Source of the DNA: Thermodesulfobacteriota bacterium | Lineage (GTDB): Bacteria > Desulfobacterota > Desulfobacteria > Desulfobacterales > JAUWMJ01 | NCBI GenBank assembly: GCA_034189135.1 | Contig: JAXHVO010000032.1 | Location: forward strand, 1 to 54,828 | Reading direction: 5' to 3' | DNA: 54,828 nucleotides | In this document: in pieces, positions 9,575 to 19,176 of the stretch | How positions within the stretch are numbered: position 1 is the first letter of the stretch | Layout of the letters: each line of letters opens with the position of its first letter | Program-made: the position numbers and the translations under genes | The notes under the pieces: model-generated | What the model saw: only the letters and a program-made list of their open reading frames with translations | What the model was told of the DNA's origin: nothing | The model's database searches: none

Positions 9575-9871
9575 ATGAACGAGCAAAATAAAACAAAAAC
9601 TTCGGAGGCTGTCAAGACGGCTGTTTTTAATGCGTTTTCCAACGAGTTTCAGTCCGAAGCCATTGACACCTTGTCCAGATATGGAGTTGAAAAATACGAG
9701 CGAGACTCTGAGCGTGAGCAACTGGCCATAGTGAATCTCTGTGGCGGCGATATGGATAAATTAGGCGAATTGGTTGCACAGGCAAAAAAGGATTACAGAA
9801 ACATAATATTTAACCATCCCTCCACGAACTACCACACCCCCGGAATAACAGTATTGCAGAATTTACATTGA
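9575..9871 (+). CDS. Small hypothetical protein
   Basis: This 98-residue frame reads as a plausible soluble, mixed-charge protein (ELVAQAKKDYRNIIFNHP near the end) but matches no family I know. Its 3' end overlaps the 3' end of the convergent radical-SAM gene by 43 bases, which is unusual for a real gene pair. The last residues may therefore be a chance extension, or the gene may be a remnant. No strong Shine-Dalgarno is visible before the ATG. Treat it as possible rather than established. Confidence 0.4.
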   Translation: MNEQNKTKTSEAVKTAVFNAFSNEFQSEAIDTLSRYGVEKYERDSEREQLAIVNLCGGDMDKLGELVAQAKKDYRNIIFNHPSTNYHTPGITVLQNLH

Positions 9872-11007
9872 TTGCCGGTCAGGTTGTAGGTGGGAATGAA
9901 ATAACCCTGACGTTCAATCAGCAGTTTGTTGCAGTGGTGGCAGTAGGTATGATTGCCCTCATGGCCGGGCACATTACCGAGGTAGACATAGCGGATTCCC
10001 TGCTGCATGGCCAGCTGGCGAAATCGGGTCAGGGTGGAAACCGGAGTGGGTGGCAACCGGTCGAGCTTATACCTGGGAAAAAATCGCAGAAAGTGCAACG
10101 GATGGTCCGGTCCGAGATATTCAAGAATCCATTCACACATCTGTTTAACCATGTCCGGGTCATCGGTATATCCGGGAACGACCAGATTGGTCATTTCAAA
10201 ATGAATCTTTTGCTCATGGAGGGTTTTAAAGGTGTTTAACACCGGCTTCAGCCGCCCCCCGTTTAGTTTGCGGTAAATGGCATCGCTGAAAGATTTGAGG
10301 TTGACATTGGCCCCATCCAACACTTGGCAAAATTCCAACAGCGGTTTGTGGTTGATATAGCCGTTTGAGATCCACAGGTTGTATAACCCATTGGCTTTTG
10401 CCAGACGGGCGGTATCGATCATATATTCGAAAAATGTGGTCGGCTCTGAATAGGTGTAGGCTATCGATTTGCATTGTGACTGCATGGCCGCTTTTATCAC
10501 CCCCGGAGGGAAAAGTTCGTGATGACGGACTTCGGTGGGTTTGACCTGGGATATCTCCCAGTTTTGGCAGTTCAGGCAGCGAAAATTACAACCGGTGGTT
10601 GCCAGGGAAAAGGCCTTTGAGCGGGGCTTAAAATGATACAGCGGCTTTTTTTCTATGGGGTCAACATGTAAGGCGCAGGGATTGCCGTAAGCCAGGCTGT
10701 AAAGACTGCCGTTTATGTTGACCCTGGATCGACACACGCTGCGGTCACCGGGAGACAGGATACAGCGATTCGGGCAGATACCACAGACCACCCGGTCGCC
10801 TTTCAGTTTTTTATAGAAATACCCTTCATGGGACCATTTCCACGGGGTTGCCGGCGCATCACCTTTCAATATCTTGCCTTTGATATCAGCTGGTCCGGAT
10901 ATCTGATAATTTTTCCCCTGCAAAAAGGCGAAGGTCTGGCAGGGAAAGGCGCTGGAAAGCAGTGCCGAGCTGTAAATAATAAAGTGTCGTCTGCTAATTT
11001 TTTTCAT
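9829..11007 (-). CDS. AmmeMemoRadiSam system radical SAM enzyme
   Basis: The 392-residue protein carries the radical-SAM iron-sulfur motif CNFRCLNC (C140, C144, C147) and the flanking TTG. An N-terminal CGICPNRCILSPGDRSVC cluster (C75, C78, C82, C92) and a C-terminal CHHC...CKFC pair could bind further metal, as in this subfamily. The N-terminus KKISRRHFIIYSSALLSSAFP resembles a Tat signal (RRHF), implying export of a folded enzyme, which is unusual for radical SAM. It overlaps the start of the upstream membrane gene's stop by 14 bases. Together with the Memo-AMMECR1 fusion it forms the AmmeMemoRadiSam set, whose reaction is not established. It is related to PflA-type activases. Confidence 0.88.
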   Translation of the reverse strand: MKKISRRHFIIYSSALLSSAFPCQTFAFLQGKNYQISGPADIKGKILKGDAPATPWKWSHEGYFYKKLKGDRVVCGICPNRCILSPGDRSVCRSRVNINGSLYSLAYGNPCALHVDPIEKKPLYHFKPRSKAFSLATTGCNFRCLNCQNWEISQVKPTEVRHHELFPPGVIKAAMQSQCKSIAYTYSEPTTFFEYMIDTARLAKANGLYNLWISNGYINHKPLLEFCQVLDGANVNLKSFSDAIYRKLNGGRLKPVLNTFKTLHEQKIHFEMTNLVVPGYTDDPDMVKQMCEWILEYLGPDHPLHFLRFFPRYKLDRLPPTPVSTLTRFRQLAMQQGIRYVYLGNVPGHEGNHTYCHHCNKLLIERQGYFIPTYNLTGNQCKFCNTVIPGVW

Positions 11008-13099
11008 GACTGATCCCCAACCAGATCAAGCTCAACAGTTTTAGAACAATCAAGGCTGCCGCAGTTCTAAACACACCTAAAAACGGCAGCAGCATCACGC
11101 TGGTGAGCAGTGTACCGGCAGCGGCACCGATCAGATCCGCAGAAAAAGACTTTGATGCAGCTGAGTTGTCTGCCCCCCTTAAATGAAACGCCACCGGAAA
11201 CTGAAACCCGCAGGCAAGAGAAACCGCAAAGCCGAAAGAAAGAAAAAAGATCTCGGGCAGGTGATAGGCCCAGAACTTCAAGACAAAAATAAATCCGGCC
11301 AGGAGAACAATAAGAAGGCCATCGGTAAACATCAGCTGTTTTATTTCATTTCTCTTGAGTTTGGTTGCCAGCCAGGCTCCGGGCAATAACCCTGCAAGGA
11401 AAACAGTGATAATTAAGCCGATCTTAAGGTAAATATAACCGAAAAAAATCTGAAAAGCAAAGATAACTAAAATTTCACTTCCCATATTCACACATCCGGT
11501 GGAAAAAAGGACAAACTCTTCCCTTGATATGCGAATGAGATAGATCAGGGTGATTAAAGCCAACCCGGTAAAAAACAGGTTGGGAGAGGTGGAAAATTTG
11601 GCAAACCACTGGGAAAACATAAGCCGCATGAGGTGCGGGGAGTGATCGAAATTAATGGGGGTGCTGGGGTCTATCAATTTTTTTAGCTGACCGATTCTTT
11701 CCAAGGTCACATTGCCGTAATAATAGCCTTTGATGTAGCTGGTGGAAATATTTTTTGCCGTAAGAAGGGCCGGTATATCGGCGGAAAGCGGATGGTTGCT
11801 GCAAACAAAAAAGATTTTTTGACCGGGTAGCATCAACAGATGGTTAAAATGAGAAGCCGCCGTATTATACAGCGAGGAAAGCTTCTGTCGCTGAGGTTCT
11901 GCCAGATAATTATCAAATCCCTGTGCGGAAAAACTGAGTATCCCCTCGGGGGACAGATGATCCTTGACTATGGCAAAGAATTTATCGGTAAAGAACCTGT
12001 TTATTTGAAAGGTGGTGGGTTCAGGAACATTCATGATGACTGCATCATATTTTTTTGTTGAGCGGGAAAGAAAGGCACGGCCATCATGGTGGATGACGTT
12101 TAGATTTAAAATTTTCCGCAGCATGTTGAAGCGGAACAACACGTGGGAAACATCCGGATTCAATTCCACAAAATCGACAGATTCCGGGTGATGCTTTTCT
12201 AACTGGGTCATCATGCCGCTTTCGGCGGAGATAATTAATATATTTTTAAGGTGATCACGCTGGGACAATGGATAGTGAACAGCCTCTTCAGCCATGGTCA
12301 GATTCTGGCTGCTAAATGATGGAACACCGTCCTGGAACAAAGTGAATTGCTCGTTGTCCTGGTGAATCGAGATGCGGCCATAGCGGGATTCACCGTAAAA
12401 GGCCAGCTTGCCTTCGCGCGGAGCAAGTGAAGGGTTTTCTAAATATACGCCGGCGAAAAGGATAAGAACGGACAGGAAGGTAAAAAGTATGGCACCCGGA
12501 TGATACCGGTGCTTAAAATGAAACAACAGGTAGGTGGTCAACATCAGCGGCAGGTTGGCCAACAAAACAGCCTGCAGGGGAGAGACCAGAAAAACAAGGA
12601 TAAAGGAAAACAGAGCGCCTCCGCTGATGTCTCCCAAATTGTCCGTGATATAGATCCGTGCGCCGGGATAATCGGGAATTTCCTTTCTGATGGTGAACAG
12701 GGCGTAGGGCAATACAAAACCGATGAGCAGGCAATAAGGCGCAACGGTTAAGAAAGTAAATGCAAAGGTCGGATAAAATCCAACGGAGCTTCCATGAATA
12801 AAGAGGACGTCTCGCAGTATACGTATTCCCAGGATTTGAAATACAGGCAGGCAAACCAGGCAAAAAGAAAGCCAGCCCAGGTGATTCACCGCAACATGCC
12901 GTGGACTCCTGGAAATAATGTGGGCCAGAAATGTTCCGATTCCACCAAGGACCAGCCAGTTGAATAGAATGAGGGCAATGATAAACTCATTCCCATTAAA
13001 CTGGGTTAAAAATTCACGAATGGTGACAAGCTGGGTGACCACGGAGGAGATTCCCGTGGCGATCACCACTCGGTTTATGGCGGGTTCAATTGTTCTCAT
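10994..13099 (-). CDS. Membrane protein with spermidine-synthase-like domain
   Basis: The 701-residue protein has about seven hydrophobic segments (20-230), a soluble Rossmann-like block (about 235-465), then a second membrane section to the end. The soluble block resembles polyamine aminopropyltransferases: KNILIISAESGMMTQLEKH, VDFVELNPDVS, HHDGRAFLSRS and YDAVIMNVPEPTT. In active enzymes the last motif normally contains the catalytic Asp followed by DP; here it is N and EP, so classical spermidine synthesis is doubtful. The membrane text NLGDISGGALFSFILV is typical of fused MFS/spermidine-synthase proteins. The gene starts 12 bases downstream of the Memo-AMMECR1 stop and overlaps the radical-SAM gene, so all three are one operon. 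Confidence 0.78.
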   Translation of the reverse strand: MRTIEPAINRVVIATGISSVVTQLVTIREFLTQFNGNEFIIALILFNWLVLGGIGTFLAHIISRSPRHVAVNHLGWLSFCLVCLPVFQILGIRILRDVLFIHGSSVGFYPTFAFTFLTVAPYCLLIGFVLPYALFTIRKEIPDYPGARIYITDNLGDISGGALFSFILVFLVSPLQAVLLANLPLMLTTYLLFHFKHRYHPGAILFTFLSVLILFAGVYLENPSLAPREGKLAFYGESRYGRISIHQDNEQFTLFQDGVPSFSSQNLTMAEEAVHYPLSQRDHLKNILIISAESGMMTQLEKHHPESVDFVELNPDVSHVLFRFNMLRKILNLNVIHHDGRAFLSRSTKKYDAVIMNVPEPTTFQINRFFTDKFFAIVKDHLSPEGILSFSAQGFDNYLAEPQRQKLSSLYNTAASHFNHLLMLPGQKIFFVCSNHPLSADIPALLTAKNISTSYIKGYYYGNVTLERIGQLKKLIDPSTPINFDHSPHLMRLMFSQWFAKFSTSPNLFFTGLALITLIYLIRISREEFVLFSTGCVNMGSEILVIFAFQIFFGYIYLKIGLIITVFLAGLLPGAWLATKLKRNEIKQLMFTDGLLIVLLAGFIFVLKFWAYHLPEIFFLSFGFAVSLACGFQFPVAFHLRGADNSAASKSFSADLIGAAAGTLLTSVMLLPFLGVFRTAAALIVLKLLSLIWLGISHEKN

Positions 13100-13111
13100 T
13101 AAAATGTAACG

Positions 13112-14584
13112 TTATTTTTCAGCAAGTCCAAAGTATTGAGCCTGGTAGGTCAAGACTTCAAGTTTGGTGTTTTTCCATGAATTTGCAGAAAGACCGGCCT
13201 TTGAGCATAGGCGGGAAAGGAAAATCTCCGGTTCAGGCAGCTGTCTCCAGACCTGGGGCAAAAAAGTGGCGACTGCCCGTCCTTTGCGGATAATCACCCC
13301 GTCTATATTTACCCGGAGTTTAGCCAGCAAATCGGAATAATCGGTATATTCAAGGGGTTTGGGTTGAGTAAGTACGCTGATTTCGATATCGATATGATCA
13401 AACTCATCAGATGTTAAAGGAGGAAAACGGGGATCAGCAAAAGCGGCATTCAGCGCGTTGTGTATAATTCCTGATTGGATCGATTCTTTAGCGGTTAAGC
13501 TTCCGATGCAGCCGCGCAAGCGGCCGTCGATTTTAAGGGTGACAAATGTGCCGCAGCGTTTGGTAAAAAAACGGTCTTTTAAGGCATCGGCTAACTGCCT
13601 GGATTGGTCGGCCGACATTTTTTGTCCAAGTTGTTCCATTATGGTTTTACGGGCCAGTTTAACCAGCACCTGCCCCTGTTTTTGGCTCAGGGATGTGTCG
13701 CCAAAATAGGCAATGGCAGAATATCCCACCACTTTTGAACGGTCCCCTGCGGTATCCCCGCTGTTTGAATAATGAAGCAGGACAGGTTGCCATTGCCGGC
13801 GGTGGGCGATTTCCATTAATAGGAGAATCGGTACTTTTCCGCAGGCGCAGTTTTCTCTGTTTTTTAGTTTTTTAGCTTTGTTATTTAATATAAGGTCAAT
13901 GGTCTCTTTGTCCCTGGCTGAGGCCTTGGAGTAGGGGAGAAAGTGGGATAAATCCGAGCTGACCACCAGCAAGGTGTCAGCATCGAGCAAAGGTTCGATG
14001 GTATCCGCAATCCCCCTGATTTCAGTTGGATGGCCCATGACAATGGGGACCAGTTTAAATTCTTTAAGGTAATACTGTAAGAAAGGAAGGATAACCTCCA
14101 GAGAATGCTCAATTTCGTGATTTTTTAGAATGGATTGAAACAGATTTGTTTTGTTAAGCAATCGGCGGGTATCTGGATGGAGACCGATCAAGCCGAGAGG
14201 GGTCTGGTAGCCTTTGACCTGGCTGATGGCACAGTTTCGGTAACCGATGCGATGATCGGGTCCAAGAAGAATCACCTTGTTAAACTGATTATTCCCTAGA
14301 ACCAAAGAGGCGTGGGCAGCAGTAAAACCGGAGTAAATGTATCCGGCATGCGGCAGGATGATGGCTTTAAGCTGCTTATGGGGAGGAATGTTAACGGTGG
14401 TTCGTGTTGCCTTTTGCGTTAAGCTGGCAATCATTTGTTCAAGTTCCGCTCGGTTGGAAGGGTAAAATTTACCCGACCAAATCGGCATGCGGATATGATC
14501 GGACGCTAAAGAATTTAAAGCGATGACAGCAACCAGGCATAGGGCAAAAAAAACGATTACCAATGATTTAACCGAATGCATCAC
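13112..14584 (-). CDS. Memo-AMMECR1 fusion (AmmeMemoRadiSam proteins B and A)
   Basis: This 490-residue protein fuses two families usually encoded separately. Residues about 35-300 are Memo-like, an extradiol-dioxygenase fold: MPIWSGKFYPSNRAELEQM, PHAGYIYSGFTAAHASL, LLGPDHRIG and SSDLSHFLPY. Residues about 310-488 are AMMECR1-like: GTFVTLKIDGRLRGCIGSL and PRFPPLTSDEFDHIDIEISVL. An N-terminal hydrophobic stretch (SLVIVFFALCLVAVIALNS) is a signal or anchor, so the pair probably acts outside the cytoplasm. It lies directly upstream of the membrane aminopropyltransferase-like gene and the radical-SAM gene. The start codon is the GTG at 14584 or the adjacent ATG. Biochemical function of the set is unknown. 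Confidence 0.9.
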   Translation of the reverse strand: MMHSVKSLVIVFFALCLVAVIALNSLASDHIRMPIWSGKFYPSNRAELEQMIASLTQKATRTTVNIPPHKQLKAIILPHAGYIYSGFTAAHASLVLGNNQFNKVILLGPDHRIGYRNCAISQVKGYQTPLGLIGLHPDTRRLLNKTNLFQSILKNHEIEHSLEVILPFLQYYLKEFKLVPIVMGHPTEIRGIADTIEPLLDADTLLVVSSDLSHFLPYSKASARDKETIDLILNNKAKKLKNRENCACGKVPILLLMEIAHRRQWQPVLLHYSNSGDTAGDRSKVVGYSAIAYFGDTSLSQKQGQVLVKLARKTIMEQLGQKMSADQSRQLADALKDRFFTKRCGTFVTLKIDGRLRGCIGSLTAKESIQSGIIHNALNAAFADPRFPPLTSDEFDHIDIEISVLTQPKPLEYTDYSDLLAKLRVNIDGVIIRKGRAVATFLPQVWRQLPEPEIFLSRLCSKAGLSANSWKNTKLEVLTYQAQYFGLAEK

Positions 14585-14661
14585 AGATAGCCTTAAGTTG
14601 AAAAAAGATTAGCTAAGGTTGGTGATTGATGTTGAACTTTATCACAACAAACAAGACGTTT

Positions 14662-15459
14662 TCAACTGTATTTTGTGTTATGGAAAGAGAGAATATCAGA
14701 CACATGAACAAAAGATACGCCGGAATGTTTGGGACTTGAAATAAAGCACCTGATGGCTTTCGCGGTTTGTGGAAAAGGGTGGCCGATTCCGATGGCATAT
14801 CCGTGTATTTTTGCATGAATTTCCAGCTGATAAAGCTGTCGCCGAATATATTTGTCTTGCAAACAATTATCGAGGAATATATTTCTGCACGCGGTCGTCA
14901 TGTGAAGTTTCTTGGCGGTTTGGTGGGCAACGCTGTGGCCTGAAGTCAGGCTGTCAATAAAAAATAGGTTAGAGTCTTTAATGACCCTGAGCGCATGACC
15001 TATTTGCTTATCACATGAGGTAAACTTTGAACCCATATGGTTGTTCACTCCGGTGGCATAAGGTGCCGCAAAGATGTTTTCTTGCATAATTTGAGAGATT
15101 TTCTGTGGTTTGTATCCCACCAAAAGTGCCCCCGGGCCTGGATCCAGGTGGGAGTTGAAAGGTTCCATGGGTTGGTGCAGCATGATTTCATGTCCTTGGC
15201 CATGGATTTCAACCGCAATACGATAAGAATGGGTCAGATGGGGCAGCACGGAAAAAGTCATCGGGATGTTCACATTTAAAAAATCTCTTGCGCGGGGGAT
15301 GCTGTATCCGATATCATCGATTATCAGGGCAATTAAGGGTTGAACAGAAGAATTATTTTTTTTCTCAACCATGGCAAACGCTTTGGAAAAAATGCTGAGC
15401 CCGAAAAAATTTGATGCCAGCACAAAAGCACTATTTTTTAGAAAACGTCTTCTGTCCAT
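14662..15459 (-). CDS. Divergent polysaccharide deacetylase (YibQ/DUF610-like)
   Basis: The 265-residue protein starts with a Tat-like or Sec signal (MDRRRFLKNSAFVLASNFFG). The mature part follows the divergent polysaccharide deacetylase pattern: PLIALIIDDIGYS with the DD pair, IPMTFSVLPHL, GHEIMLHQPMEPF, GVNNHMGSKFT, LFFIDSLTSGHSVA and YAIGIGHPFPQT near the end. Such proteins sit in the periplasm and are predicted carbohydrate esterases; the substrate is unproven. It is the first gene of the minus-strand run that continues into the Memo-AMMECR1 fusion 77 bases away, although cotranscription is inferred from spacing only. Confidence 0.87.
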   Translation of the reverse strand: MDRRRFLKNSAFVLASNFFGLSIFSKAFAMVEKKNNSSVQPLIALIIDDIGYSIPRARDFLNVNIPMTFSVLPHLTHSYRIAVEIHGQGHEIMLHQPMEPFNSHLDPGPGALLVGYKPQKISQIMQENIFAAPYATGVNNHMGSKFTSCDKQIGHALRVIKDSNLFFIDSLTSGHSVAHQTAKKLHMTTACRNIFLDNCLQDKYIRRQLYQLEIHAKIHGYAIGIGHPFPQTAKAIRCFISSPKHSGVSFVHVSDILSFHNTKYS

Positions 15460-15600: not shown

Positions 15601-16506
15601 GTGGCACAACCGTTTAGCTTTAATAATAAAATAAATAAAACCAGTTTAATAAATTTGAAAACATACTTCGATTGCATACCGTGTTTTGTTCGCCAGACCC
15701 TTGAAGCCTCAAGAATTGCGACTTCAGACGAAAAACTTCAGGAAAAGATACTCAGAGGCGTTCTTGCAAAGGTAAGCGATATGGATTTTGGCCAATCGCC
15801 ACCTGTGATGGGACAGTATATCCATAGATTAATCAGGAAAATTTCCGGGAATCAGGATCCTTACCAAAAATTAAAGCACAATTTTAACAAATTGGCCCTT
15901 GGTATTTATGCTGAACTTTCAGACAGGGTTAAGAATGCCGCAGACCCTTTTGAGGCTGCCGTACGTTTTGCCATTGCCGGAAACATTATAGACTCAGGTG
16001 CAGTTCATCATCTGACAAAGCCTTATATCATGGCAACCATAGAACAAGCCATGTCACAGGAATTGTCTGGAAATATAGAAAAATTGCGAACAGCTGCGAA
16101 TTCTGCCAAAAAAATTCTTTATCTGGGGGACAATACCGGTGAAATTGTTTTCGATAAGTTACTAATACAACAGTTGCCTGCAGATAGGGTGACGTTTGTG
16201 GTGCGTGGGTATCCGGTGATAAACGATGCCACTTTGGCTGATGCGAAACTCACGGGGCTGACTGATATCGTTGAGGTCATCGACAACGGGTCGGATGCAC
16301 CCGGAACCATACTGGAAAATTGTTCTCCGGAGTTTTTAACCCAATTTTTCGCTGCGGATCTGGTACTGGCAAAAGGCCAGGGCAATTACGAAACCCTTAG
16401 CAGTGCAGACCAAAACATTTTTTTCATCTTAAAAGCAAAGTGCCCGGTCATTGCCAGGGATATCGGTTGCGAAATCGGCAGTCTGGTTATTAAAGATATT
16501 AATTAA
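15601..16506 (+). CDS. DUF89/ARMT1-like damage-control phosphatase family protein
   Basis: The protein has the DUF89 signature: an N-terminal CIPCFVRQTLEASR, then near residues 174-186 the motif GDNTGEIVFDKL with metal-binding Asp/Asn, FVVRGYPVINDAT, and AKGQGNYETL close to the C-terminus. DUF89 enzymes are metal-dependent phosphatases that remove damaged or side-product sugar phosphates. The GTG at 15601 opens the frame, but residue 19 is encoded by a TTG at 15655, and from there the protein begins (M)KTYFDCIPC as family members do; neither site has a strong Shine-Dalgarno. The gene is divergent from the deacetylase and lies 18 bases upstream of the J-domain gene. Confidence 0.88.
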   Translation: MAQPFSFNNKINKTSLINLKTYFDCIPCFVRQTLEASRIATSDEKLQEKILRGVLAKVSDMDFGQSPPVMGQYIHRLIRKISGNQDPYQKLKHNFNKLALGIYAELSDRVKNAADPFEAAVRFAIAGNIIDSGAVHHLTKPYIMATIEQAMSQELSGNIEKLRTAANSAKKILYLGDNTGEIVFDKLLIQQLPADRVTFVVRGYPVINDATLADAKLTGLTDIVEVIDNGSDAPGTILENCSPEFLTQFFAADLVLAKGQGNYETLSSADQNIFFILKAKCPVIARDIGCEIGSLVIKDIN

Positions 16507-16524
16507 GGGTCATTATATAACGCT

Positions 16525-16983
16525 ATGAAAATAATACTAATAATATTAGCTGTGCTGTATCTGCTTTCCCCTTACGATATACTGCCTGACTTCATTGTCG
16601 GCTGGGGATGGCTGGATGATCTGGCAATTTTAGGTTTTTTATTCAGGTATTTATATTTAAATAAAAAGAAACAGGAATACAGCAAGCAAAGCTTCCAACA
16701 GTCAGAAAATTCCTTTGAAAAAAATCAGGGACAAAGATTTTCCCAGGAAAAATCTTCCGGTTCAAATTCTCAGTTCGAATCAAAACAATCAATAAAAAAT
16801 CCTTATGAAATACTTGGCATTGAAAAAGATGCATCCAAACAGAAGATAAAGGAAGCATACCGAAAGATGGCAGGCAAATACCATCCTGACAAAGTGGTTC
16901 ATCTGGGCAAAGAATTCCAACAGATTGCGGAAGAACGGTTTAAAGAAATACAACAAGCTTATGAGATGCTGAAGGACAAATAA
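16525..16983 (+). CDS. DUF1232-like membrane segment with C-terminal J-domain
   Basis: The 152-residue product has a hydrophobic N-terminus with DUF1232-like text ([23 protein letters not shown], about 11-33), a polar Ser/Gln-rich linker (50-88), and a J-domain (92-152) with [13 protein letters not shown], the HPD tripeptide at 120-122 and EIQQAYEML. The HPD indicates a functional stimulator of DnaK-type Hsp70, here tethered at the membrane. No glycine/phenylalanine or zinc region follows, so this is a short, class-III-type co-chaperone. It lies 18 bases downstream of the DUF89 gene, probably in one operon. The substrate is unknown. Confidence 0.85.
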
Positions 16984-17188
16984 CATTAATGGTAAAAGGC
17001 AAATATTTTTTATGGCGGCCATCTGTGATCTTTTTACTTGACTTTTTATGGATATATCATATGCTTAAACAAAATGATGGTCCGGTTAATAAAACCGGTT
17101 TGTATTGCTCTGATGAAAAGTTTTTTTGAGATGGAAAAACTTGGGGCATTAGGCAAGAATTTTTATTTTTTGAAAGGAGAGTATTGTT

Positions 17189-17389
17189 TTGGCAAATGGT
17201 ATCGTAAAATGGTTTAGTGACAAGAAAGGGTATGGCTTTATTGAAAAAGAGGAAGGTGGAGATATTTTTGTTCATCATACTTCGATCAACATGTCAGGCT
17301 TCAAAACCCTTTCCGAGGGCGATCGGGTGACGTTTGACGTGGAAGAAGGGGATCGAGGTCCTTCAGCCAAAAACGTCGAAAAAGTTTAA
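17189..17389 (+). CDS. Cold-shock-domain protein (CspA family)
   Basis: This is a 66-residue single cold-shock domain that binds single-stranded RNA or DNA. RNP1 appears as KGYGFIE and RNP2 as IFVHHTSI, with the opening [13 protein letters not shown]. Translation starts at TTG 17189, supported by AAGGAGA eight bases upstream and by the usual [10 protein letters not shown]-terminus. The upstream leader from about 17040 is AT-rich, holds a small hairpin (CCGGTTAATAAAACCGG at 17081-17097) and may fold as a temperature-responsive leader; that is inference. A strong intrinsic terminator follows at once, so the gene is monocistronic. Confidence 0.95.
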
Positions 17390-17406
17390 TTTTTAAATAG
17401 AAAATG

Positions 17407-17440
17407 AAAAGGGCATTCTGGCAACAGGTGCCCTTTTTTT
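17407..17440 (+). terminator. Intrinsic terminator of the cold-shock gene
   Basis: AAAAGGGCA pairs with TGCCCTTTT around a small inner CTG/CAG stem with a GCAA loop, and the 3' arm runs straight into a T-tract. It lies 18 bases after the stop codon. Confidence 0.85.
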
Positions 17441-17931
17441 TTGCCCTTTTTTTTACCATCTCTCATCATCCTGAGACAGACCTATATACGGGTTTTTCAT
17501 TGTTTAAAACGGAACATATTCATTAGAAACAAACATTCTCTTTTCAATCTTAGTTCGGTTCATCCGGGTAATCGCCTGTTTGACCGGTACAAGACTTTAC
17601 AATCTTACCTGTAAATGAACGTACGGCAGCTATCTCGCTTCAATTAGATTCGAGCCAGCCCCAAGAGACAGAATCCCACGGCTGCGTTGATTGTCTCTGA
17701 CTGCATCGGTTTAACTGAGAAGATAGGGGGCGTGTACGATACCGATCTCATTTGTCAGTCTTGTACCGGTCAAACAGGCGATTACCCGGACGAGCCTTTG
17801 GTTTGATGCATCGTTTTGACAAGTCGGGCGTGAAAATTTATGAGAAACAGTATGCTTTTCTCCTAAAACAGGGTGAAGCCAATTTTACCTGTTGAAAGAT
17901 AAAATCCAAGTGTTATATTTTTATTACCATC
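17441..17931. other. Gene-free stretch containing an inverted-repeat element
   Basis: No gene is seen. The stretch is occupied by an element with perfect 34-bp inverted repeats (17563-17596 and 17757-17790). The flanks 17441-17562 and 17791-17931 show nothing recognisable apart from a possible promoter region before the Mut7-C-like gene. Confidence 0.55.
17563..17790. mobile_element. MITE-like element with perfect 34-bp inverted repeats
   Basis: The left arm 17563-17596 begins TCCGGGTAATCGCCTGTTTG. The right arm 17757-17790 is its exact reverse complement. The outer flanks continue with partial complementarity (GGTTCA / GAGCC). The 160-bp core codes for nothing recognisable but contains a smaller AGAGACA/TGTCTCT repeat. 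A non-autonomous transposon or a remnant of an insertion sequence fits best; a structured RNA or site-specific recombination site remains possible. No obvious target duplication was found. Confidence 0.6.
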
Positions 17932-18378
17932 ATGGAAATAAAATTTGCGGCGGAAAAAACACTCGGAAAGCTTGCTAAATGGCTGAGAATACTTGGATTT
18001 GATACGATTTACCCATCAGATCGTACTCTTCCGGTGGAAAACGGCAGGACTCTGCTGACCAGAACCAAACGTATCCGGGATGAGTGCAAAACCACTCAAC
18101 TGATTTTTATAGAATCCGATCAACCGTTTAACCAGCTTCAAGAGGTGGTTAAAGCACTCGGAATTACAAACGAAGATTTAAAAACGTTTACCAGATGCAT
18201 TAGATGCAACACTAAAATCAGAACGATTGATAAGAATTCCCTGCGTTCAGTGGTACCTGATTATGTGTGGGAAAGTCAGGATTCGTTCAAAACTTGCCCA
18301 AAGTGCCAACGAATATACTGGCAGGGAAGCCATATCAAACGAAGCAGAGAACTGATTAAAAAACTATTCAAATCGTGA
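17932..18378 (+). CDS. Mut7-C RNase-domain protein with degenerate active site
   Basis: The 148-residue protein has the Mut7-C layout: an N-terminal PIN-like half (LGKLAKWLRILGFDTIYPSD, about 11-30) and a C-terminal zinc ribbon with C89/C92 (CIRC) and C122/C125 (CPKC) followed by RIYWQGSH. In typical members the first strand carries Asp and a later motif reads LTRD. Here the first is Glu (AAEKTLG) and the second reads LTRTKR, and the DDEL-type segment between them is missing. Nuclease activity may therefore be lost, leaving a binding role. It is followed 12 bases later by an ATP-grasp gene. Confidence 0.83.
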   Translation: MEIKFAAEKTLGKLAKWLRILGFDTIYPSDRTLPVENGRTLLTRTKRIRDECKTTQLIFIESDQPFNQLQEVVKALGITNEDLKTFTRCIRCNTKIRTIDKNSLRSVVPDYVWESQDSFKTCPKCQRIYWQGSHIKRSRELIKKLFKS

Positions 18379-18390
18379 AAAAAATAAACC

Positions 18391-19176
18391 ATGGCTCATA
18401 ACTCAAAAGTAATTGCGCTTGAAGCACGCCTTAAAGACTGTAAAAACGTTTTAACACTTGGGGTTCGGCCTAATTTCTCTGATTACAGCAGCCGAGACGC
18501 GGAGCGGATACGAAATGCCGGTAAAATCTATTACCCAACCACGTTCTATGCCGACCTGTTTGATGCAATGGGAAAAAAAACTTTTCCCAGCTATCATACT
18601 TATAAATGTGTTCAAGACAAGATAAAACAAACCGCTTTGTTTCAGCTGCTTAAAATACCACACCCCAGAACAAGGGTTTTTTATGGAAAGCGCCAAAAAA
18701 AGAAAATTAACGATCATTTCCCATTTCCCTTGATAGGTAAAATCCCCCGTGGATCGGCAATGGGTCGGGGGGTTTACCTTATTAAAGATGAGAAAGAGCT
18801 TAAACAATATCTGAAGGCAACGGACGTGGCCTATATTCAGGAATACCTGCCCGTTGACCGTGATATACGGGTCGTGGTGATAGGCAAAAAAATTGTGCAT
18901 TCCTACTGGCGTATTGCTTCTAAAGGTGAATTCAGAAGTAATGTTGCCCTTGGCGGCCAGATCAGTTTTGATCATATGCCCCCAAAGGCCCATGAACTTG
19001 CCCTGCATACTGCAAAAAAGTGTAACTGGGACGATGTGGGTATTGATATCTGCATGCATAAGAACCGCTTTTTTATTCTTGAGGCAAATATGAAATATGG
19101 TAAAGAAGGCTTTAGAACAGCCGGAATTGATTATAAAAAACTCATGGAGACCATGATCGATAATGAAGAAATTTAA
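18391..19176 (+). CDS. RimK-like ATP-grasp ligase
   Basis: The 261-residue protein resembles RimK-type ATP-grasp enzymes: KIPHPRTRVFYG, FPLIGKIPRGSAMGRGVYLIKDEKEL (nucleotide-binding lysine and glycine loop), AYIQEYLPVDRDIRVVVIGKKIVHSYWRI, then the metal-binding DVGIDICMHKNRFFILEANMKYG. Such enzymes join a carboxylate to an amine with ATP, as in glutamate or amino-acid additions to proteins and peptides. The substrate is not evident. The gene is 12 bases after the Mut7-C-like gene, and its last 14 bases overlap the HD-domain gene, so the three are one operon. Confidence 0.85.
   Translation: MAHNSKVIALEARLKDCKNVLTLGVRPNFSDYSSRDAERIRNAGKIYYPTTFYADLFDAMGKKTFPSYHTYKCVQDKIKQTALFQLLKIPHPRTRVFYGKRQKKKINDHFPFPLIGKIPRGSAMGRGVYLIKDEKELKQYLKATDVAYIQEYLPVDRDIRVVVIGKKIVHSYWRIASKGEFRSNVALGGQISFDHMPPKAHELALHTAKKCNWDDVGIDICMHKNRFFILEANMKYGKEGFRTAGIDYKKLMETMIDNEEI

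Follow-up and report, generated by a model that had tools for sequence, protein, structure and literature searches.

Radical S-adenosylmethionine (radical-SAM) enzymes are taken to be cytoplasmic, since S-adenosylmethionine (SAM) and low-potential electrons are located there. How, then, could such an enzyme work on the far side of the membrane? The question is raised by a locus in a 54,828-nucleotide contig (JAXHVO010000032.1 of assembly GCA_034189135.1, C32 in our numbering; henceforth 'the window') from the 4.6 Mb genome (140 contigs, completeness 95.5) of a Thermodesulfobacteriota bacterium, in which a radical-SAM protein of the AmmeMemoRadiSam family bears a twin-arginine-type export leader. 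We found that this protein, a Memo-AMMECR1 fusion and a polytopic membrane protein, here named 'SpdMem', constitute a conserved three-gene cassette. The extracytoplasmic placement of this module, which an earlier note on the window had suspected and found hard to reconcile with the need for SAM, is fairly well supported: predicted export leaders are conserved on both the radical-SAM protein and Memo-AMMECR1, and the topology predicted for SpdMem agrees with it. We tentatively favour the possible reading that the cassette is an extracytoplasmic AmmeMemoRadiSam module whose major facilitator superfamily (MFS) partner, SpdMem, delivers SAM; delivery as such is a guess that fits. At the place that the earlier note had given, four open reading frames (ORFs) lie consecutively on the minus strand, from 15459 down to 9829:

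14662..15459, minus strand: divergent polysaccharide deacetylase (Polysacc_deac_2, PF04748) with a twin-arginine-type leader of its own (D-R-R-R-F-L).

13112..14584, minus strand: Memo-AMMECR1 fusion (PF01875/TIGR04336 and PF01871/TIGR04335) with a Sec-type signal.

10994..13099, minus strand: membrane protein SpdMem, with MFS-type 6+6 helices and two extra central helices.

Within SpdMem, residues ~225-500: spermidine-synthase-like core between the MFS halves, predicted to be periplasmic.

9829..11007, minus strand: AmmeMemoRadiSam-family (TIGR04337) radical-SAM enzyme; twin-arginine-type leader at about residues 1-30.

The window's radical-SAM protein scores 352.4 bits against the TIGR04337 cut-off of 220 and carries near its N-terminus the twin-arginine-type motif S-R-R-H-F-I followed by a hydrophobic stretch, much as the earlier note had described; the leader is kept in close relatives. 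Leaders and signals were assigned by our own rules (a twin-basic motif plus a hydrophobic stretch) and not by SignalP. Under these rules, 147 of 219 non-redundant family members (the window's protein counted) were leader-bearing, 71 leaderless and one unreadable; three of the leader forms (L158, L160 and L229) were labelled by hand, their leader sitting further upstream. The twin-basic pair of 144 leaders was RR in 93, KR in 28, RK in 17 and KK in 6. In a FastTree tree of 156 of the 219 proteins, one branch (support 99) of 102 rows contained all 97 leader forms together with five leaderless ones, and the other side consisted of 54 leaderless forms. Because the leader labels require only three changes on this tree, compared with 47.5 for shuffled labels, the leader is more than a product of chance. 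Among the five leaderless rows, L006 and L007 branch first, L032 starts at a contig end, and L011 and L014 are genuine exceptions. A further protein of the exported branch that was scored leaderless, L020, also starts at a contig end. With few exceptions, homologues in the window's branch do not start past the leader, a point on which the earlier note had staked its claim, although in the wider family 71 of 219 are leaderless. In the stretch from the leader to the first cysteine cluster, ATG is absent from 81 of 144 leader forms, and ATG, GTG and TTG are all absent from 37, so that a bypass of the leader is excluded only in those 37.

Two arrangements of these genes deserve mention in their own right. 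Some genomes carry tandem radical-SAM genes of the TIGR04337 family, mostly both leader-bearing (L142 13526-15774, L143 9794-12048, L222 and L225). At L181 and L183, a leaderless radical-SAM gene adjoins a Memo gene (at L183 also AMMECR1) whose product has an N-terminal membrane anchor, possibly a split arrangement across the membrane.

Judged by alignment, the leader-bearing radical-SAM enzyme is intact, with its predicted catalytic residues kept. C75, C78, C82, C92, C140, C144 and C147, the last three of which form the radical-SAM motif CxxxCxxC, occur without exception in the 147 leader and the 71 leaderless forms; of the 147 leader forms, 146 keep C356 and C359, and 145 keep C381 and C384. 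E188 (99%) and K238 (100%) are as conserved in the leader forms as in the leaderless ones. The structure model has a mean predicted local distance difference test score (pLDDT) of 90, low at the leader, and its best fold match among the chains compared was pyruvate formate-lyase activating enzyme (Z 22.4 over 225 residues at 2.3 A; NifB, 16.5). Three further cysteine columns are typical of leader as opposed to leaderless forms, namely C111 (129/147 versus 9/71), C291 (127/147 versus 7/71) and C227 (102/147 versus 5/71). Since C111 and C291 are not clearly coupled (both in 114, one only in 15 and 13, neither in 5), we make no claim for an extracytoplasmic disulfide between them.

The presence of Memo and AMMECR1 in one protein, as read in the earlier note, is borne out by scores of 232.9 (Memo) and 194.8 (AMMECR1) bits against cut-offs of 26 and 99, in a protein encoded in the operon of the radical-SAM enzyme and headed by a Sec-type signal. 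H79, H111, E159, H160, D211 and H214 of the Memo domain are invariant in 74 Memo sequences, and the first two of these correspond in an alignment to H49 and H81 of MEMO1. In 90 linked loci, scored on Memo alone where Memo and AMMECR1 are separate, the pairing of a leader-bearing radical-SAM protein with a signal-bearing Memo, fusion or AMMECR1 was found 74 times. Nine others have a leader form beside a partner that a contig end truncates at its start (seven by the scoring, and two more, L039 and L094, on inspection), and the remaining seven have a signal-bearing partner beside a radical-SAM protein scored leaderless or unreadable. Of these seven, L158 and L160 carry the longer leader, L020 starts at a contig end and L079 is unreadable, which leaves L011, L012 and L014 as real cases. 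Lipoprotein-like signals occur at 10 of 97 readable Memo/AMMECR1 starts. Where AMMECR1 is a separate ORF beside a leader form, it has its own signal in L017, L059 and L223, and some relatives' loci hold AMMECR1 without Memo.

The conserved Memo histidines bear on the idea that the exported radical-SAM protein leaves SAM uncleaved and has an iron-sulfur redox or metal-handling role together with a metal-binding Memo. Excerpts of the MEMO1 study describe binding of iron or copper through H49, H81 and C244, with no dioxygenase activity detected (PMC11081632), and the two aligned histidines of the window's Memo domain fit such a role. We nevertheless regard it as improbable, given that E188 and K238 are conserved alike with and without a leader and that the closest fold is that of an activating enzyme solved with SAM.

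Having described the two leader-bearing proteins, we turn to how regularly they are accompanied by SpdMem. Loci were compared for the 80 best relatives of the window's radical-SAM protein, a sample that therefore favours the window's type. They come mostly from Desulfobacterota, but also from Bacteroidota, Ignavibacteria and two archaeal contigs; most of the records are metagenome-assembled genomes (MAGs), and the archaeal L089 and L091 may be binning errors. In the 48 of these loci whose upstream flank spans 5.5 kb or more, with neighbours counted within 6.5 kb, SpdMem was present in 44, AMMECR1 in 43, Memo in 39, and SpdMem together with AMMECR1 in 42, which makes the radical-SAM, SpdMem and Memo-AMMECR1 genes a conserved three-gene cassette. 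The four-gene set of the earlier note is thereby reduced by one: the deacetylase occurs in only 3 of the 48 loci, and we reject it as a core member and regard it as a local neighbour. The genes are also tightly packed. In the window, SpdMem and the radical-SAM gene share 14 bases and 12 bases separate the end of the fusion gene from SpdMem; in relatives, 41 of 72 same-strand SpdMem/radical-SAM pairs overlap or are at most 10 bases apart. When 988 ORFs from 108 leader-bearing loci were clustered, the three core families reached 105, 88 and 75 loci, one further cluster 18, and all the rest 6 or fewer. By eye, with no family search, the cluster of 18 resembles sigma-54-type regulators and one of the clusters of 6 resembles aldehyde ferredoxin oxidoreductases.

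The association holds across genomes as well as within loci. In a survey of 198 genomes of the phylum, TIGR04337 was found in 189 (E 1e-30), Memo in 184 (E 1e-40) and SpdMem in 71 (E 1e-25), and a leader-bearing radical-SAM protein was found in 60 of the 71 SpdMem genomes compared with 3 of the 127 others (G014, G039 and G185), with a Fisher value of 2e-35 that ignores relatedness. In those 127, reading was confined mostly to radical-SAM genes whose open frame spans at least about 362 amino acids, shorter ones being counted as leaderless and one low-scoring partial match (G033:C280) left unread; some short-frame copies in SpdMem genomes scored without a leader were likewise counted as leaderless unread. 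Of the 51 leader-bearing genomes with a fetched SpdMem stretch, 19 had no radical-SAM gene on it, in some cases because the stretch was short or near a contig end, and linkage alone therefore does not make the correlation. TatC was found in 63 of the 71 SpdMem genomes in all, the window's among them. In one genome family (L125-L129, L141 and L157) the SpdMem gene stands beside an opposite-strand leaderless radical-SAM gene.

What kind of protein, then, is SpdMem? The earlier note saw in it a membrane protein with an embedded spermidine-synthase fold, and this description stands: Spermine_synth (PF01564) matches residues 271-393, an AlphaFold model built from 62 sequences (mean pLDDT 94, predicted template modelling score 0.93) has aminopropyltransferases as its best Foldseek matches, via the core, and the core aligns with a Thermus aminopropyltransferase at Z 27.6 over 263 residues. 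A second structural aligner matched the membrane part of the model to MFS proteins, with Z scores of 30.2 for G6PT1 (349 residues, 3.2 A), 29.2 for VMAT2, 28.9 for NorA and 28.7 for SotB, and its two halves are homologous (hhalign 97.4%, E 9e-12). On this model the membrane part has an MFS-transporter fold. Two extra hydrophobic helices flank the core in all 62 sequences. Lys and Arg make up 16.3% of the predicted inner loops compared with 2.4% of the outer ones, inner exceeding outer in 62 of 62 sequences. Because the N and C ends are predicted inside and seven helices lie on either side of the core, we favour a core that lies outside the inner membrane. The MFS fold, which the earlier note missed, may answer the question of the SAM source that the note had raised.

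The core is also the part of SpdMem on which the possible reactions can be weighed. E312, kept in 119 of 127 SpdMem sequences, and D339, kept in all 127, align with what we take to be the nucleoside-binding residues of spermidine synthases, and the stretches QxNR(F/Y)(F/Y)T and NxDxxP are strongly conserved in the same set. By contrast, the first Asp of DxxDP, presumably catalytic in spermidine synthases, is Asp in only 24 of 127 and Asn in 57, including the window. Every aminopropyltransferase cut-off exceeds the score of the window's protein (105.9 against 472 for NF002956; 53.6 against 260; 43 against 249.55; 32.1 against 537; 21.6 against 304), and none of six relatives scanned reaches one; against NF037959 (cut-off 40 bits) the window's protein scores 30.1 and two of the six relatives pass (L099, 42.7; L130, 63). 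A search of the 71 SpdMem genomes for the SpeD-type SAM decarboxylase (PF02675), the one decarboxylase family sought, found none in the window's genome or 39 others; SpeD is present in 31 of the 71 and absent from 31 of the 60 that have a leader form. Because the usual decarboxylase is missing in these 40 genomes, aminopropyl transfer by SpdMem appears unlikely. The wording 'aminopropyltransferase-like' in the earlier note therefore suits the fold, but the reaction that it implies is probably wrong. It follows that a true polyamine aminopropyltransferase, in a module modifying exported polyamines, is very improbable, in spite of the spermidine-synthase fold, the partial match of 105.9 bits and the genomes that do carry SpeD; the loss of the first catalytic Asp and the unmatched cut-offs count against it along with the missing decarboxylase.

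A rather different proposal is that SpdMem is a methyltransferase or another SAM-dependent transferase acting on an extracytoplasmic target, its MFS part being an anchor or a degenerate carrier and SAM arriving by another route. There is a precedent in fungal NHMT, a protein of seven transmembrane helices with a spermidine-synthase-like domain, which in the endoplasmic reticulum methylates His1 of secreted lytic polysaccharide monooxygenases; in the excerpts of that work at hand, its authors take the loss of the acid in GxG(D/E)G to mark NHMT as no spermidine synthase (PMC10349129). The aligned acid of SpdMem (column 293, in a stretch one residue shorter than in solved enzymes) is mostly lost too, being Gly in 80 and Glu in 20 of 127 sequences, while E312 and D339 are kept. 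The window's own protein, however, has Glu at this column, the SpdMem fold is a 6+6 MFS fold and not one of seven helices, and no extra gene family that might supply a target stands beside the cassette in more than 18 of the 108 loci. We consider this proposal unlikely.

Returning to the reading that we tentatively favour, in which SpdMem delivers SAM to an exported module, the sequence of events might be as follows. The radical-SAM enzyme would fold with its iron-sulfur clusters in the cytoplasm and leave through the twin-arginine translocation (Tat) pathway, and Memo-AMMECR1 would leave through the Sec pathway and acquire its metal outside. SpdMem, as an MFS-type carrier, would move SAM or a SAM-derived nucleoside over the membrane to its own periplasmic core, which may bind it and either pass it to the radical-SAM enzyme or take back a by-product. 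The radical-SAM enzyme would then act on an extracytoplasmic substrate by forming a radical on it, and the reaction could be completed by the Memo and AMMECR1 domains. We propose delivery by SpdMem because no other partner is as frequent and because it joins a transporter fold to a nucleoside-binding fold on the side that would need SAM; a part for Memo and AMMECR1 in completing the reaction is suggested by the linkage and by the intact active sites. The fuller version, a complete radical-SAM pathway outside the cytoplasm with its own SAM supply, in which an MFS carrier exports SAM to a periplasmic core beside a Tat-exported enzyme and a Sec-exported Memo-AMMECR1, we hold to be doubtful. An envelope modification as the outcome, which the earlier note had proposed, is possible; no evidence here names its substrate.

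A number of observations weigh against SAM delivery to an exported module. The MFS fold by itself names no transport substrate, and the stretches adjoining the core contain 11.1% Lys and Arg, a value between those of the inner and outer loops. No fourth gene family occurs in more than 18 of the 108 loci, and no electron donor family was seen nearby. Three of the 48 well-flanked loci (L045, L061 and L107) carry a leader form with neither SpdMem nor AMMECR1 nearby. Of the 71 SpdMem genomes, 11 were scored without a leader form (G009, G020, G022, G046, G059, G081, G137, G163, G168, G188 and G192; G020 and G192 unexamined). In seven genomes of one family (f15) the SpdMem stretch carries a leaderless radical-SAM gene; five of them (G008, G045, G080, G110 and G187) have a leader form elsewhere, and in G137 and G163 none was found. 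Within the exported branch, two lineages (L011/L012 and L014) pair a leaderless radical-SAM protein with a transmembrane-anchored Memo. TatC was not detected in six leader-form genomes (G036, G068, G083, G110, G130 and G153). Separate AMMECR1 ORFs beside leader forms lack a signal in L049 (perhaps a frameshifted fusion), L137, L208 and L233, and not every AMMECR1 is therefore plainly exported. Lastly, searches of the open-licence literature, where most subscription papers are absent, turned up no description of radical-SAM chemistry outside the cytoplasm.

Several of these points would be expected if the radical-SAM enzyme acted on itself or a partner while still in the cytoplasm, and was exported later or merely tethered by its leader, so that no SAM would be needed outside. 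Tat substrates fold inside the cytoplasm before export, and the lack of a recurring electron donor family near the cassette, the six leader genomes without detectable TatC, the two lineages of the leader branch without a leader and the signal-less AMMECR1 ORFs in L137, L208 and L233 all agree with such a course. It is harder to square with the neighbouring Memo or fusion proteins, which mostly have Sec-type or lipoprotein-like signals and hence would have those domains outside, and with the SpdMem core, predicted to lie outside as well. On balance we judge action in the cytoplasm to be rather unlikely, though it deserves serious weight.

The window's genome also holds a second, dispersed and leaderless set, with radical-SAM, Memo and AMMECR1 genes on three other contigs, and the exported cassette is therefore an addition to an ordinary set. 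In L001 (2457-3449 and 243-1109; G000:C81), the leaderless radical-SAM gene of this genome lies between a methyltransferase gene (also a UbiE family match), which precedes it, and a UbiA prenyltransferase gene, which follows it. A general link to UbiA was rejected: among 50 leaderless entries with at least 1.3 kb downstream (not de-duplicated), a single-sequence search found it only in L001 and L215, at the same place. As to TatC, G036 (L155) is a single contig, scored 99% complete, with a twin-arginine-type leader yet no detectable TatC. Beside the operon in the window, divergent genes at 15601-19176 on the plus strand encode ARMT1-like damage-control phosphatase, DnaJ-domain, Mut7-C RNase-like and RimK-like ATP-grasp proteins. 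Promoter-like sites were at chance level (12 versus 10.3 expected); terminator-like sites were above chance (16 versus 8.1, SD 2.5) but mostly intragenic, and were not used in the analysis.

If the module is indeed exported, this conserved branch, which occurs in Desulfobacterota as well as Bacteroidota, keeps its active sites intact and often has a transporter-like partner, would break the rule that radical-SAM enzymes are confined to the cytoplasm and would suggest a way of supplying SAM outside. It would also give Memo and AMMECR1, domains linked to human disease, a compact bacterial model; Burroughs et al. in 2019 reportedly linked Memo to base and isoprenoid modification. The window's genome, with one set of the exported type and one that is leaderless, allows them to be compared within a single organism.

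Several known systems can be set beside the cassette. Of the chains compared, pyruvate formate-lyase activating enzyme is the closest solved fold, but the window's radical-SAM protein adds an N-terminal four-Cys stretch, a C-terminal CxxC...CxxC and an export-type leader. With the fused MFS/spermidine synthases (NF037959) and the long aminopropyltransferases (NF002956), SpdMem shares a membrane part and a spermidine-synthase core; it differs in falling under their cut-offs, and its own core lies between the MFS halves, where two extra helices are predicted to place it outside. Fungal NHMT resembles SpdMem in joining a multi-helix membrane domain to a spermidine-synthase-like domain and in acting on secreted proteins, but it is eukaryotic and has seven helices only, and the available passages on it mention no radical-SAM or Memo partner (PMC10349129). 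The cassette also compares with the AmmeMemoRadiSam system itself (TIGR04335, TIGR04336 and TIGR04337), all three families of which score over their curated cut-offs in the window's operon; what sets the cassette apart is that Memo and AMMECR1 are fused, that the proteins bear export-type leaders, and that an MFS-spermidine-synthase membrane protein is their frequent partner.

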